A stretch of DNA of 64,000 nt from Candidatus Aenigmatarchaeota archaeon. GTDB taxonomy: Archaea; Aenigmatarchaeota; Aenigmatarchaeia; CG10238-14; SCSR01. Shown here in pieces: positions 614 through 7,422 of this stretch. The stretch spans positions 335,492-399,491 of the forward strand of contig JAUWZS010000001.1 of NCBI GenBank assembly GCA_030615205.1, written 5' to 3'. Under the pieces are notes generated by a model that saw only the letters and a list, made by a program, of their open reading frames with translations, made no database searches and was not told the DNA's origin. The translations under genes were made by a program, and so were the position numbers. The stretch's first letter is position 1; the number at the start of each line of letters is the position of its first letter.

Positions 614-1273
614 TTATTTCTTATTCTCCTCGCATCTTTCCTTGTATTCGCAGAATTTGCACATCCATTTCATGTCTTCAGTCTTTTTCGCCTCGGCCAC
701 AGGCAGCTTCTTCTCGATAAGATGCTTGTGCAGGCTCTCGAACCTCTTTATGATCTGGTTCCCGTTCTTCTCGTCGAACTTTATCTCGAACATCTTGGTC
801 TGCAGGTTAGTCTTGTCAATATATAGAATAACACCGTTGTATATCCCGCTTGCACGCATATAGAACTGCAGTTGCATCACATGCGCACGGTTCGCTTTTT
901 TAACAAAAGATACGTTCTTTGTGGATTTGACCTCCACCAGGACCAGTTTTCCCTCCATTTTCAAAAGAATAACATCGTCTATCCGTCCGGACACCACAAA
1001 CTTGGCATTTTCGAACCTCAGCGGCATCTCGACCTTCAGCAGCTCGACCTCAGGCGTCTTTTCGCTTTTCAGCACATCAGCGACAAAATCATGCATAAGA
1101 TTGCCGGCTTCGAATATCTTCAGCAGCTCAGGCTCGACCACATGCGGGTGGTTGTACGAGTACCATGTCTTTCTTATGCATCTTCCTATCTCGGAGGGGT
1201 AGTACCTCCCCACCTTCTTCGGCTTGCTCGCGCGTGCTATATGCTGATCTATTAGCTTATTGAAGTCTATCAT
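614..1273 (-). CDS. Cas4/RecB-like PD-(D/E)XK nuclease with Fe-S cysteines
   Basis: GRCIRKTWY, GRIDDV, LVEVKS, QLQFYM and C-terminal CKFCEYKERC motif. Confidence 0.75.
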   Translation of the reverse strand: MIDFNKLIDQHIARASKPKKVGRYYPSEIGRCIRKTWYSYNHPHVVEPELLKIFEAGNLMHDFVADVLKSEKTPEVELLKVEMPLRFENAKFVVSGRIDDVILLKMEGKLVLVEVKSTKNVSFVKKANRAHVMQLQFYMRASGIYNGVILYIDKTNLQTKMFEIKFDEKNGNQIIKRFESLHKHLIEKKLPVAEAKKTEDMKWMCKFCEYKERCEENKK

Positions 1274-1435: not shown

Positions 1436-2401
1436 ATGACAGCCAAATTATTTGTTTTCACAGCAAGTGGAGCCGAAGCATTCAGGCATTACATTGATAC
1501 AATAGAAGAAGGATTTACTATAGATAGAATAAAGCGATTTCTGTCCGAAGATGATTTGAAAAATATAGAAGACATTTTTCCCGATAGAAAAATAAGAGCG
1601 TGGGGCGCAACACCCGGAAGCGGAAACATAAGAAATTGGAATAATCTAGAAATCGATGATAGAATTCTGATTTATAGAAAAGGAAATTATGAATACATTG
1701 CTACAATCGTACATAAGATACATAATCCTGAATTAGCTAAATTTTTATGGGGTACGGACTCATCCGGCCAAACTTGGGAATATATGTATCTTCTTGATAA
1801 TCTAAGAGAACTACCAGTTCCGGCATCAGATTTCAATAAGGTTGTAGGTTATGCACCAAATTATTTTCCACAAGGCTTTATGCAAATAAGTGGAGATAAA
1901 CTAAATTCACTGATAGAAAAATTTGGGTCGATAGACGAATTTTTGAATTATCTCGAAGAAGGTAGATGGGTTGAGGTAAAGGAAGATATTGGAGAAAATA
2001 TTAAAAAGGAAATAATAAAAGAAAAAGTCAGTAGACAGGTAGGCCACACAGAAATTCTTGAAAGAAATTTAGAGGATATTATAGAACAAAATATTCAGAA
2101 ACTAGACCCACATCTTAAGATAATTGCAAGACAAAAAGTCACTGATGTCGGGAGACTCGATTTATTATGTAGTAATGCGGATTATGTTGTTATTGAATTG
2201 AAAAAATCAAAGGCGGGTTCTTCGATAATAGATCAGATATCTAGGTACATGGGATGGGTAAAGAGACATATAGCTGAAAAAGAAGGTAAAGGAGTTAGAG
2301 GAATAATTGTTGTCGGTAAAAAAGATACTTATCTTGAATATGCTGCAGCAGCGAATCCGTTAATAGAAGTAAAAGTCTTTAACGTAACATTTTCTAGCTA
2401 A
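1436..2401 (+). CDS. EVE/PUA-like N-terminal domain fused to NucS-like PD-(D/E)XK nuclease domain
   Basis: N-term IRAWGATPGSGNIRNWNNLEIDDRILIYRKGNYEYIATI; C-term LERNLEDIIEQNIQKL..DVGRLDLLCSNADYVVIELKKSKAG.SIIDQISRYMGWV. Confidence 0.7.
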   Translation: MTAKLFVFTASGAEAFRHYIDTIEEGFTIDRIKRFLSEDDLKNIEDIFPDRKIRAWGATPGSGNIRNWNNLEIDDRILIYRKGNYEYIATIVHKIHNPELAKFLWGTDSSGQTWEYMYLLDNLRELPVPASDFNKVVGYAPNYFPQGFMQISGDKLNSLIEKFGSIDEFLNYLEEGRWVEVKEDIGENIKKEIIKEKVSRQVGHTEILERNLEDIIEQNIQKLDPHLKIIARQKVTDVGRLDLLCSNADYVVIELKKSKAGSSIIDQISRYMGWVKRHIAEKEGKGVRGIIVVGKKDTYLEYAAAANPLIEVKVFNVTFSS

Positions 2402-2454
2402 TTTAAGACACACAAAACGGGCAAGGTAATATTTCGTATTGATCTGGCATATAA

Positions 2455-2853
2455 TCAAACTAATTTAATTATTTTTTTTACAGCAGTATATGAGTCTTTT
2501 CTTATTTCATGTTCCCAGATTCTTATTATTTTCCAACCATTTGATTTAAGTTTTCTTGTTGACTCTTTATCTCTTTTTATGGTGTCTTCTATTTTTTTAG
2601 ACCAGAAATCTACCCTTGTCGAGGGCGCCTTAAAACATTTTGGGCATTTGTGCCAGAAGCAACCATGTATAAAAACCGCTATTTTGTGTTCTGAAATGAT
2701 TATATCTGGATTACCTTCGATTTTCGGATGCATTTTATGTTTAACTTTTCTTCCCTTCAGAATATTGTGTATTTTCCTTTCTGGCGAAGTCCACTTACTC
2801 CTTATTCTGGACATATTATAGCTTCTCTGTTCTTTTGTCATGACATCTGTCAT
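2455..2853 (-). CDS. vsr: Very short patch repair (Vsr) endonuclease
   Basis: MTDVMTKEQRSYNMSRIRSKWTSPE, IAVFIHGCFWHKCPKC, WKIIRIWEHEI; start placed at internal Met of ORF 2455..2895. Confidence 0.92.
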   Translation of the reverse strand: MTDVMTKEQRSYNMSRIRSKWTSPERKIHNILKGRKVKHKMHPKIEGNPDIIISEHKIAVFIHGCFWHKCPKCFKAPSTRVDFWSKKIEDTIKRDKESTRKLKSNGWKIIRIWEHEIRKDSYTAVKKIIKLV

Positions 2854-2863
2854 AAAGAAAAGA

Positions 2864-3802
2864 TCACATTCCGTACCTAAGTATTTTTTCTGCAAATGGC
2901 TGCACTGCTGGTGGTGGAACAGCGTTTCCTATGGCTTTATAATCGTTTTTGCTCTTCCCAAAAAGTTTCGGGTCAAGCCCTTGTACCTTTGCACATTCAC
3001 TCTCTGTGAGCATACGTATTTTATTTTCCGAGTATTTGATCAGCGCGTTTGCCCCATCTTTATAATATCTTGCCGGAATTGTATATGACGGCTGGTCCAT
3101 TTTTAAGAACTGCCATCTGAAACCTAGGCCGCGTTTCTTGTTTCTCTTTTCCCTCCGAACAAAACCTTCTATGCGTTTTTTTGAATAAAAATATTTTTTA
3201 TCGACTTGATTTTTATTTAATAATATCCTGTTTACTGGTTTCCATTTTCTTTTTGGCATTTTGAAGTCAAAATCAGCGCCTATACTGTTTCCCACAAGAA
3301 ATATCCTTTTCCGTTTCTGTGGTACACCGAAGTCTGCTGTGTTTATAATATAATGTCTGATTCTGAATTCAGGTGAGAACGCTTCATATAAAGAATCCAG
3401 TGCTCCTCTCCCGTCATTCATTTTTGCAGATATAAATCCCCTCACGTTTTCTATAAAAATCCATGAGGGTTTCAGTTCTTTTGCAATCCTTGCAAACTCA
3501 TAAAATAGGCTGTTTCTTTTGTCGCTCGGTTTTCTTCTGCCGGCTATGCTGAACCCCTGACATGGCGGGCCACCGACAAGAACGTCCACTTTTTTTCTCT
3601 TTATTTTTTTCAAAATGGTATCGGCTGTCAGATTTCTTATGTCGTCTACAATAATTTTCGACTCCGGAAAATGCTTTTTGAAAATACTGGCAACGTATTC
3701 GTCCGAATCTATACCAAGAATTATTTCAAATCCGGCGTCTCTGAACCCCCTGCTTATGCCTCCGGCACCGCAGAAAAGATCGACAACAGTCGGTTTTTGC
3801 AT
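2864..3802 (-). CDS. dcm: DNA (cytosine-5) methyltransferase
   Basis: DLFCGAGGISRGF, GGPPCQGFSIAGRR, ENVRGF, AIGNAVPP motifs. Confidence 0.95.
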   Translation of the reverse strand: MQKPTVVDLFCGAGGISRGFRDAGFEIILGIDSDEYVASIFKKHFPESKIIVDDIRNLTADTILKKIKRKKVDVLVGGPPCQGFSIAGRRKPSDKRNSLFYEFARIAKELKPSWIFIENVRGFISAKMNDGRGALDSLYEAFSPEFRIRHYIINTADFGVPQKRKRIFLVGNSIGADFDFKMPKRKWKPVNRILLNKNQVDKKYFYSKKRIEGFVRREKRNKKRGLGFRWQFLKMDQPSYTIPARYYKDGANALIKYSENKIRMLTESECAKVQGLDPKLFGKSKNDYKAIGNAVPPPAVQPFAEKILRYGM

Positions 3803-3833
3803 ATTTAATAATTAGAAGTGTTTATTAAAAAGT

Positions 3834-5510
3834 ATGGAGCCAAAAGAAAAGCCGACTGGGTATCTATCATTTGATAGTGAAGCAAGATTGTTCGATCTGA
3901 TTGGTAGACAATCTATTTCAGATCCAATAATAGCGTTATTAGAAGTTATAAAAAATGCTTATGATGCTGACGCGACAAAGATTGTTATTTCATTTAAAAA
4001 AATGAAAACGGATGGAAAAATCATTATACATGACAACGGATGTGGAATGTCGCTTGATGATATCAAAAACAAATGGATGAAGATTGGAACAACCGATAAA
4101 TTGGATAATCCAATTACTAGAAGAGGGCGGCGCAAAATAGGTGAAAAGGGAATAGGGAGATTTGCTCTTCAAAAACTAGCAAAAAGACTTACCTTAACAA
4201 CAAAAGTTAAAGGAGAAAAATATGGTTTTAATTTGGAGATAAATTGGAATAATTTTAATGAAAGAGTCCCAGCTAGTTCCGTATGGATTCCATTTCAAAG
4301 AATTAAATTTCCAGTGAGAAATTATGGAACTCAGATAGTATTAAGCAATCTTAGAGAAAAATGGACAGGAGATATGATAAAAAAAGTTTATGAAGAAATT
4401 AGAATTTTGCATTTAAAACTTGGTAAAGATAAATTTGACATCGAAATTCATGCTCCAGAATTTCCTAAATACACGGGAAAACCAAAAATTACTCTTCTCA
4501 ATTTTGCTGTTTACCGATTTAGTGCTAAGCTCGCAAAAAACGGCAAAATAAAATATGAAATGAAAAGAAAAGCGAAAAAGAGCTTAGTATGGAAAGATAA
4601 AAATACTCGATTAACGTGCGGGCCACTAGAATTTGTCTTTTACTTTTTCTATAGAAACCGACGAAGATATGAACTGCACGCAAATCTCGAATTAACAATG
4701 AAACAGTTAAAAGAGATTAGAGGATTTCTTGACAAATGGGGAGGCGTTAAACTTTATAGAGATAAATTTAGAGTAAAACCATTCGGAGATATAGGTAACG
4801 ATTGGATACTTCTTGATAAGAGACGGGTGCAGAAACCAGGTTTCAATCCGGGAAACGACCAGATATGGGGTTACATTAAAATAACAAGGGACGAAAATCC
4901 TGGCATAGTAGATATTACAACAAGGGAAGGTATTTTAAAAGAAAAACCATACAGAGATATGTTTGAATTTATTCAACAAGCAATTAGAGTCTTCGTCAAC
5001 TGGAGAGTATTGAGCGAACCTGAGAAAAAGAAAAGGAGAAAAAAAGCAAAAACCGTGAAGGATGCCGTTTTAGAAGCGAAAAAAAAGAAAATACAAGAAA
5101 AACCAGAACTAATTTTTGATTTTGATATTAAAAAAGTGGCAGAGGAATTAAAACCAGAACTACTGAAGGATATTGAGGATCTGGAGAGATGTTTTTCCGC
5201 TGAAGTTTATAGAGGTTGTATGATGTTCGCAGCCAGAATTCTAGAATTGTTGCTATCTCGTAAGTATTTTGACAGGACTTCGGTAGATCCTGTAGAAAAT
5301 AGATGGGGATTAGAAAAAATCATAGGAAAATGCAAGGAAGAAGAAGTTTTCAAAGAACCCGGATTGGCAGAAATGATGCGTCTGATTAACGAAACTAGAG
5401 TTCCTTCGGTACATAAGAAAAAACAGTTTTATGTTCCAACTCCAGAAGAAACTGAAGGAATTGTTAAATTACTGAATTCGTCAATTAAGAAGATACTAAG
5501 AACGTCCTAA
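3834..5510 (+). CDS. GHKL ATPase (MutL/MORC-like) with DUF4145-like C-terminal domain
   Basis: ALLEVIKNAYDADAT (N box), IHDNGCGMS (G1), RRKIGEKGIGRFALQKLA; C-terminal helical ERCFSAEVYRGCMMFAARILELLLSRKYF.. Confidence 0.8.
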   Translation: MEPKEKPTGYLSFDSEARLFDLIGRQSISDPIIALLEVIKNAYDADATKIVISFKKMKTDGKIIIHDNGCGMSLDDIKNKWMKIGTTDKLDNPITRRGRRKIGEKGIGRFALQKLAKRLTLTTKVKGEKYGFNLEINWNNFNERVPASSVWIPFQRIKFPVRNYGTQIVLSNLREKWTGDMIKKVYEEIRILHLKLGKDKFDIEIHAPEFPKYTGKPKITLLNFAVYRFSAKLAKNGKIKYEMKRKAKKSLVWKDKNTRLTCGPLEFVFYFFYRNRRRYELHANLELTMKQLKEIRGFLDKWGGVKLYRDKFRVKPFGDIGNDWILLDKRRVQKPGFNPGNDQIWGYIKITRDENPGIVDITTREGILKEKPYRDMFEFIQQAIRVFVNWRVLSEPEKKKRRKKAKTVKDAVLEAKKKKIQEKPELIFDFDIKKVAEELKPELLKDIEDLERCFSAEVYRGCMMFAARILELLLSRKYFDRTSVDPVENRWGLEKIIGKCKEEEVFKEPGLAEMMRLINETRVPSVHKKKQFYVPTPEETEGIVKLLNSSIKKILRTS

Positions 5511-5565
5511 CTTTTTATAAAATTCAGATATACCAACGATAGAAATACTGAAATTAAAAGAAGAA

Positions 5566-5964
5566 ATGAAAAGAGAAAGAGACCAAAGTGTTTTAATGAA
5601 AGATAACAATTTAGATGACATCAGGATTAAATCAGTAAGAGTTTTTATTAAATATAACTATCTAACGGATTCGGACTTGTGGTGGATTTTTAATGAGTAT
5701 AAAAAAATTCTCAGAGAGGAATTAAGTAAAAAATTTGATATGAAATATAAAAAGTTACCGCTGAAAATTGTGAAGATAAAATCTGAAAGTCCATTGGATA
5801 TTGAATTTGCGCTTAAATTAACTTCTTATTTATATCAGATAATTGGGGTAGTGGTAACTCTCTATAAATTCTACGAAATCTTGAACAAAGTAAATAATAA
5901 GTTTAGAGAAAAAGAAGAAGCCTTTAGGAAAAAGCCAAATATTATTGAAGCAAAATTTGGATAA
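5566..5964 (+). CDS. Hypothetical protein with a hydrophobic segment, downstream of the GHKL ATPase
   Basis: 132-aa ORF, LTSYLYQIIGVVVTLYKFYEIL hydrophobic stretch. Confidence 0.55.
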   Translation: MKRERDQSVLMKDNNLDDIRIKSVRVFIKYNYLTDSDLWWIFNEYKKILREELSKKFDMKYKKLPLKIVKIKSESPLDIEFALKLTSYLYQIIGVVVTLYKFYEILNKVNNKFREKEEAFRKKPNIIEAKFG

Positions 5965-6185: not shown

Positions 6186-6533
6186 TCAGCTCATGCGCTT
6201 ATTTTTTTTATGACTACGAGTCATAGGAGTGTCTGCCCAAATATCGCCTTCTACAAGACATATTGGTGATCTGACATAACCGTTTTCTCTCATTCTTTCG
6301 AGGACAGCCTTTACATGAGATTGAATAATATTATGTGCTGGGCGTCCGCCTTTTCCATACGCAATGTATGCCATAGCAGCAGAATGACTATTACCTTCAT
6401 GCATTACATTCCTATATATATTCTCACCTGGCTTTGGAATGTATACTAATTTCGGTTTCGGTTCTTGAAATGGTATTGATTCAGATAAAAGTCTTTCGCC
6501 GTCTGCTCCACCAGGATTATTATCTGCACCCAT
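6186..6533 (-). CDS. Hypothetical protein
   Basis: 115-aa ORF. Confidence 0.45.
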   Translation of the reverse strand: MGADNNPGGADGERLLSESIPFQEPKPKLVYIPKPGENIYRNVMHEGNSHSAAMAYIAYGKGGRPAHNIIQSHVKAVLERMRENGYVRSPICLVEGDIWADTPMTRSHKKNKRMS

Positions 6534-6628
6534 AAAATCATCTTAGAAAATCTTTAGCAGTTAAATATTTAAGGTTTAATAAAGTTTGGAAACATATTTA
6601 AGCTTTATTTTTAATTCGTCGAAAGAAA

Positions 6629-6925
6629 CTAGCCACATTTATTTACATCACAATAACATTTATCATAATCAAGAATATCGCTTTTAACATTTCTTTCTAT
6701 TTTGAATTTTGTAGTTTCCATCTCAGAATAGCATAAAGACTTGCAGCTGTCGTCTGTCAATTCTGTGTCATATCCATCTGATGGCTGTTCGTGAGCAAGA
6801 ACCCAATCAGATTCGCAAACTAAATTACCACCAAAAATTCTTCCAGTGATCGTGCCGAGCATCCCGGTGTAGGCAGAAACGAAGAACAGACCGATTATAA
6901 TTATCCCAATTATCCATTTCTTCAT
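6629..6925 (-). CDS. Small Cys-containing membrane-anchored/secreted protein
   Basis: N-terminal MKKWIIGIIIIGLFFVSAYTG followed by Cys-rich ectodomain. Confidence 0.6.
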   Translation of the reverse strand: MKKWIIGIIIIGLFFVSAYTGMLGTITGRIFGGNLVCESDWVLAHEQPSDGYDTELTDDSCKSLCYSEMETTKFKIERNVKSDILDYDKCYCDVNKCG

Positions 6926-6942
6926 AGTTCAAACCTCTTTAA

Positions 6943-7422
6943 TTAACCTGGACAATATATTGTTCCTGTGTCAGTATTTGACGGACCACTTACTACTATT
7001 GTATTAGTACCAGCTGTGCCTATGAGTGTGGACGTGCATTGTGTTGCAACAGCGCCAGGGTGCAATGATGTCGTGCCTAGACCGCATGTTTTGCCTACCA
7101 TCGGATTATCTTCTACATCCCTACCTGAAAGAATTACCTGAGCTGCATTTGTTGATATATCTCCAGTATTTTTCACATATACATTTATCGTAGTTCCTGA
7201 ACAACTGGTTGCGGTCTCATCGATTTCAATAACTACTGTTCCTAATATTGTAGTTGTTGGCGTGGGTATCGTTGTTGTTGTGGTTGTAGGCTGAATAGTT
7301 GTTGTCGTAGTTGTAAGTTGAATAGTTATTCTATCCGACAAAATAAAAACAGAAATAATAACAGCAATAGCGATAATACCAACACTGATTAAAATTGTTT
7401 GGTCTTTTACCATAATTAACAC
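6943..7422 (-). CDS. Membrane-anchored protein with poly-Thr linker and CARDB-like ectodomain
   Basis: N-terminal TM, TTTTTTIQPTTTTTTIPTPTTT linker, INVYVKNTGDISTNAAQV. Confidence 0.6.
   Translation of the reverse strand: MLIMVKDQTILISVGIIAIAVIISVFILSDRITIQLTTTTTTIQPTTTTTTIPTPTTTILGTVVIEIDETATSCSGTTINVYVKNTGDISTNAAQVILSGRDVEDNPMVGKTCGLGTTSLHPGAVATQCTSTLIGTAGTNTIVVSGPSNTDTGTIYCPG

Follow-up and report, generated by a model that had tools for sequence, protein, structure and literature searches.

A compact archaeal paraMORC-type C5 restriction-modification locus with an adjoining YTH/EVE-NucS nuclease gene in an Aenigmatarchaeota genome

General features of the locus

Five adjacent genes in an Aenigmatarchaeota (DPANN) genome comprise a compact version, in an archaeon, of C5 restriction-modification of the paraMORC type, whose GHKL/methylase/Vsr core is already known, and a nuclease gene of a different kind. 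We lean towards two neighbouring defence modules: a paraMORC-type C5 restriction-modification (R-M) module and an independent YTH/EVE-NucS nuclease. In the first module, the methyltransferase would mark host sites with 5-methylcytosine (5mC) and Vsr would repair the T:G mismatches that follow 5mC deamination. The GHKL-S5 ATPase, with a 132-aa protein, would belong to the restriction arm, where the ATPase would dimerise on DNA under ATP control and either license or carry out the attack on unmarked DNA. In the second module, YTH/EVE-NucS would cut incoming DNA after reading a modified base in it (type IV-like). We infer restriction of DNA by the first module, as well as its cutter and the base that YTH/EVE-NucS reads.

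The genes lie in a window of 64,000 nucleotides (the whole stretch that was analysed) from a 1.17 Mb assembly, which is 88.5% complete and whose best-matching public relative bears the name Candidatus Aenigmatarchaeota. All five open reading frames (ORFs) that a sequence-only reading had placed here were confirmed; families were found for four products and none for the 132-aa protein. The YTH/EVE-NucS gene (1436..2401, plus strand) is convergent with the Vsr gene (2455..2853, minus strand) and not co-transcribed with it. Vsr and the C5-cytosine DNA methyltransferase gene (2864..3802, minus strand) form one unit, divergent from the GHKL-S5 ATPase gene (3834..5510, plus strand), and the gene of the 132-aa protein (5566..5964, plus strand) follows the ATPase gene 55 bp downstream in the same direction. 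The layout of the restriction-modification genes is compact, with two genes per strand; it includes no helicase, no histidine-kinase part and no receiver partner. Four proteins (methyltransferase, Vsr, NucS and GHKL domains) have intact catalytic motifs, and no classical restriction enzyme is visible in the locus as read, as had been noticed before.

The start codons of the methyltransferase and ATPase genes had been estimated to stand about 31 bp apart, and the distance is exactly 31 bp (3803..3833, ATTTAATAATTAGAAGTGTTTATTAAAAAGT). This A+T-rich stretch must contain both start regions, presumably with the promoters. The block had also been called AT-rich, which is true but modest: its G+C content is 34.0% against a contig mean of 38.3% for 4.5-kb stretches, at about the 5th percentile.

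A Cas4-like nuclease gene (614..1273, minus strand) adjoins the cluster and is not counted in the system. It was rejected as a part because it is widespread in the taxonomic family (8/16 family genomes), where it mostly lies apart from any such cluster; its gene tree was not resolved. The gene adjoins the GHKL cluster both here and in a relative of the same family (window 614-1273; L004 4063-4722; L077 1436-2095), and that relative has a second Cas4-like copy elsewhere in its genome; the spot may be an insertion hotspot. Empty-site comparison revealed no synteny beyond the Cas4-like gene. To the right of the cluster (window 6186-7422) there are three short minus-strand ORFs with no family matches, one of them threonine-rich with a hydrophobic start.

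C5 methyltransferase and Vsr

The methyltransferase (312 aa) matches PF00145 (E 9.3e-61) and has the full set of catalytic motifs, including DLFCGAGG, GGPPCQ, ENV, QKRKR and GNAVPP. Vsr matches TIGR00632 (E 3.4e-35) with 120.9 bits, exceeding the cut-off of 97.85; in its alignment with E. coli Vsr (1CW0, E 1.3e-23), PD and HGCFWH are retained. The longest Vsr ORF extends to 2895, but the conserved part begins at an internal ATG at base 2853, which is most likely the start; with this start, 10 bp separate the gene from the methyltransferase stop, whereas the longest ORF would overlap the methyltransferase gene by 32 bp.

Matches to Vsr were found in 13 of 158 genomes of the phylum. Nearly all of the loci inspected have an adjoining C5 methyltransferase, several carry recognisable restriction enzymes (PstI, HNH, HinP1I, EcoRII or SmaI type), and most are without a GHKL gene. 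Vsr in Aenigmatarchaeota is an accessory of restriction-modification.

Motif avoidance was tried as a guide to the recognition site and set aside. In 399 kb of this genome (G000 contig C29), GATC reaches 0.58 of its expected frequency, but it is under-represented in most of the sampled Aenigmatarchaeota genomes, hence uninformative.

GHKL-S5 ATPase and the 132-aa protein

The ATPase matches HATPase_c_3 (E 7.1e-22), and its ATP-binding motifs (EVIKNAYDA, DNGCGM, GEKGIGR) are kept across 32 sequences. Its predicted structure, confident to about residue 400, matches MORC3, MORC2 and TRAP1 and has an S5-fold domain after the GHKL domain, which is the MORC/MutL-like architecture. It is a compact paraMORC-type GHKL-S5 ATPase, with the diagnostic motifs of paraMORC families 1-5 compared by eye. 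The MORC signature GhXhhpXXRhl is absent from the S5 domain as a pattern, and the nearest segment, GVKLYRDKFRV, is shifted by one residue relative to it. The protein has 558 aa against about 700-850 aa for most relatives, and one ATPase domain where the longer relatives have two: only the N-terminal domain matches Pfam, the C-terminal histidine-kinase-like ATPase domain is absent, and no ORF for a receiver-like partner exists at the locus.

The C-terminus of the ATPase (about 430-558) is all-helical, with low model confidence. It matches DUF4145 (PF13643) over the whole profile with 15.4 bits (E 0.02), below the cut-off of 23.1 bits, and its RVPSVH fits Rx4H, within the Rx4-6H pattern looked for, though the family relative is without the arginine. 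Profile comparison with HEPN by hhalign gave a probability of 7%. We tentatively describe this part as HEPN/DUF4145-like; no relatives of it were found in plasmids. The 132-aa protein has no match in Pfam, PADLOC, NCBIfam or PHROGs, and no relatives in the 158 phylum genomes, viral contigs or plasmids.

The same genome holds a second island (L006; G000 contig C4, 1-16072) with another GHKL ATPase, which shows 33% identity to the window ATPase over residues 34-167. The island also holds several methyltransferase-like genes of N6/N4 type, along with a DUF7014-like and a HSDR_N/SeqA-like protein.

YTH/EVE-NucS protein

This protein consists of a reader domain (about 1-170) and a NucS-type PD-(D/E)XK nuclease domain (about 205-320). 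The latter matches NucS_C (E 1.3e-11), and its PD-(D/E)XK core is complete, with the D in GRLDLL (239-244), ExK (254-256) and Q 267. The NucS equivalog, which includes the N-terminal NucS domain, scores 45 bits against a cut-off of 216, and only the C-terminal nuclease domain is shared.

The label EVE, which the sequence-only reading had given to the N-terminal part, is valid at superfamily level. The Pfam EVE model does not match the reader domain, but an eight-sequence profile of it matches the N-domain of Thermococcus gammatolerans McrB (6P0F/6P0G, E 2e-6), which is reported to be a YTH/EVE-like reader of N6-methyladenine (m6A) in DNA (PMC7641849, PMC7897488). This likeness does not prove which base YTH/EVE-NucS reads. 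The mean pLDDT of the model is 66.8, and the reader part is largely weak.

In Peribacillus, Nocardiopsis and haloarchaea the reader domain is fused to HNH or Mrr-like nucleases (Mrr-like is our interpretation of proteins that carry the annotation restriction endonuclease). YTH/EVE-NucS, with a modified-base reader fused to a nuclease as in type IV enzymes, is probably a separate, modification-dependent (type IV-like) nuclease. The relatives inspected stand without GHKL or Vsr. A Peribacillus simplex plasmid (L151 2784-8419) carries a NucS-domain gene, a MazG-like gene, an EVE-HNH nuclease and two C5 methyltransferases consecutively, which is possibly a related arrangement of reader-nuclease and C5 methylation.

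Recurrence of the gene set

The association of C5 methyltransferase, Vsr and MutL/MORC-like GHKL recurs elsewhere as an R-M-type set, which supports this part of the sequence-only reading. The family relative combines a GHKL (34% identity) and a Vsr (49%) with two nucleases, whose genes encode a 131-aa PD-(D/E)XK-like protein (our own reading of the sequence, with no Pfam match) and a 196-aa DUF6998-like protein. For one of these nucleases, another genome (L072) encodes a relative (50%) next to a C5 methyltransferase and Vsr. In the family relative, Vsr is the last gene before the contig end, and the final 294 bases hold no recognisable methyltransferase. In the archaeal genome G129, GHKL, C5 methyltransferase and Vsr are consecutive on one strand, and plasmids of Hymenobacter, Burkholderia glumae and Agrobacterium also have the GHKL with a C5 methyltransferase and an annotated Vsr. 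The adjacency of genes in the cluster exceeds chance: GHKL with Vsr occurs in the relative, and GHKL with C5 methyltransferase and Vsr in others. At an archaeal locus (L076 1427-11504), the GHKL-C5 methyltransferase-Vsr run adjoins a SmaI-type enzyme, which has a C5 methyltransferase of its own, and a 1163-aa sacsin/NO VEIN-like protein.

At 76 of 83 loci with GHKL relatives, a DNA methyltransferase lies no more than 5 kb from the GHKL gene. A C5 enzyme is present in 34/83, N6/N4 methyltransferases (called by sequence motifs) in 50/83, and Vsr in at least 14/83, which is an undercount, as the simple gene caller overlooked the Vsr gene annotated in B. glumae. With the same queries, control loci of NucS-domain or Cas4-like relatives had no C5 methyltransferase (0/20) and no Vsr (0/20), giving Fisher p values of 1.3e-4 and 0.066, respectively; the 83 loci were picked by similarity and are not independent, so the counts and p values are a guide. 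Just one other compact GHKL of the window type was found, so the usual partners of the compact type rest on two loci. The neighbourhood is conserved in part: methyltransferase, Vsr and GHKL co-occur elsewhere, whereas YTH/EVE-NucS, which is in none of the 83 loci, and the 132-aa protein have so far never been found with them.

Alternative explanations

The sequence-only reading had suggested the EVE-NucS protein, together with the GHKL ATPase, as the ATP-dependent restriction arm of the cluster. All five genes would then make one restriction system, in which the methyltransferase protects host sites, the paraMORC ATPase clamps DNA that is unmethylated and switches on EVE-NucS as the restriction nuclease, and Vsr guards methylated sites from mutation. 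EVE-NucS is the sole nuclease besides Vsr in the block and keeps its catalytic core, and the family relative also has PD-(D/E)XK-like genes adjoining its GHKL. But relatives of EVE-NucS and of the GHKL co-occur nowhere in what was searched, the reader is of the modified-base type, and the nucleases of the family relative are unrelated to EVE-NucS, one of them being the nuclease with the relative at L072. These points count against EVE-NucS as the restriction arm, and we regard the five-gene system as possible but unlikely. A single ATP-dependent machine of a DPANN archaeon, in which a C5-methylation-checked paraMORC ATPase drives YTH/EVE-NucS with the orphan 132-aa protein as partner, seems to us rather improbable. 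We prefer two modules, with EVE-NucS separate, since none of the 83 GHKL loci carries EVE-NucS, its relatives stand without GHKL or Vsr, its reader matches the McrB m6A reader and shuffles among HNH, Mrr-like and NucS nucleases, and its gene is convergent, not co-transcribed, with Vsr. Against the two-module reading, no cutting enzyme is identified in the first module once EVE-NucS is taken away, and in Peribacillus the EVE-HNH and NucS-domain genes are close to two C5 methyltransferases.

The other proposal of that reading, a self-contained unit of 5mC methylation and deamination repair in which GHKL takes the place of MutL and NucS that of its nuclease, fared no better. Vsr is intact, and the assembly shows no MutS and no NucS besides EVE-NucS, which keeps the repair idea weakly alive, though this absence is that of an 88.5% complete assembly. 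However, Vsr beside a C5 methyltransferase occurs in the phylum mostly with type II enzymes and without GHKL, so Vsr needs none and a stand-in MutL is unlikely. Deamination repair would also be senseless for the N6/N4 methyltransferases at 50 of the 83 GHKL loci. Such a repair unit is thus very unlikely. No more plausible is the GHKL ATPase as a sensor that triggers an RNase-type HEPN C-terminus, an abortive response, when host DNA is unmarked, with the 132-aa protein as regulator. The helical C-terminus, the full-length DUF4145 match and the Rx4H motif agree with it, and HEPN/DUF4145 domains are known from R-M operons (PMC3710099); the sub-threshold score, the hhalign result, the low model confidence in this region and the missing arginine of the family relative speak against it.

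Comparison with known systems

MORC/paraMORC GHKL-S5 ATPases were described by Iyer, Abhiman and Aravind (2008) in R-M loci with cytosine methylases and Vsr-type endonucleases, with a patchy spread across bacteria and archaea (PMC2292703). The window shares the ATPase, the C5 methylase and the Vsr-type endonuclease with these loci, and its ATPase has the methylase/endonuclease/Vsr neighbour of the paraMORC type. It differs in lacking a superfamily II helicase, in its compact ATPase with another C-terminus and in the adjoining YTH/EVE-NucS. In 2021, HEF_HK relatives of paraMORC were reported whose neighbours are C5 methylases, Vsr and a receiver-like partner (PMC8011034). Prokaryotic MORC/paraMORC ATPases have been linked with R-M through their gene neighbourhoods, but their mechanism was termed poorly understood (PMC8011034). 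The homologous N-terminal GHKL-S5 (25-34% identity) and the C5 methyltransferase and Vsr neighbours are shared with these HEF_HK/Response_reg_2 loci, but the window protein has neither their additional, histidine-kinase-like ATPase domain nor a receiver-like partner. The compact system would be a small setting for testing what a paraMORC ATPase does.

The best NCBIfam match of the ATPase N-terminus is the BbrUII/HgiDII restriction enzyme family (NF050001, E 1.9e-25) of GTCGAC C5 systems, in which the enzymes are paired with C5 methyltransferases (PMC5867850). Unlike these enzymes, the window ATPase matches over residues 35-207 only, with 89.5 bits, and does not reach the equivalog cut-off of 550 bits. 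The Vsr-containing type II R-M loci of Aenigmatarchaeota (EcoRII, HinP1I, PstI and SmaI types) likewise have a C5 methyltransferase beside Vsr, but in them a restriction enzyme can be recognised and a GHKL gene is generally missing.

YTH/EVE-NucS shares with T. gammatolerans McrB and the EVE-HNH enzyme VcaM4I (PMC7897488, PMC7641849) a PUA-superfamily modified-base reader joined to a nuclease. Its nuclease is of NucS type, no GTPase is involved, and a methyltransferase lies nearby. The fusion adds a further nuclease type to those joined to modified-base readers, in archaea with very small genomes.
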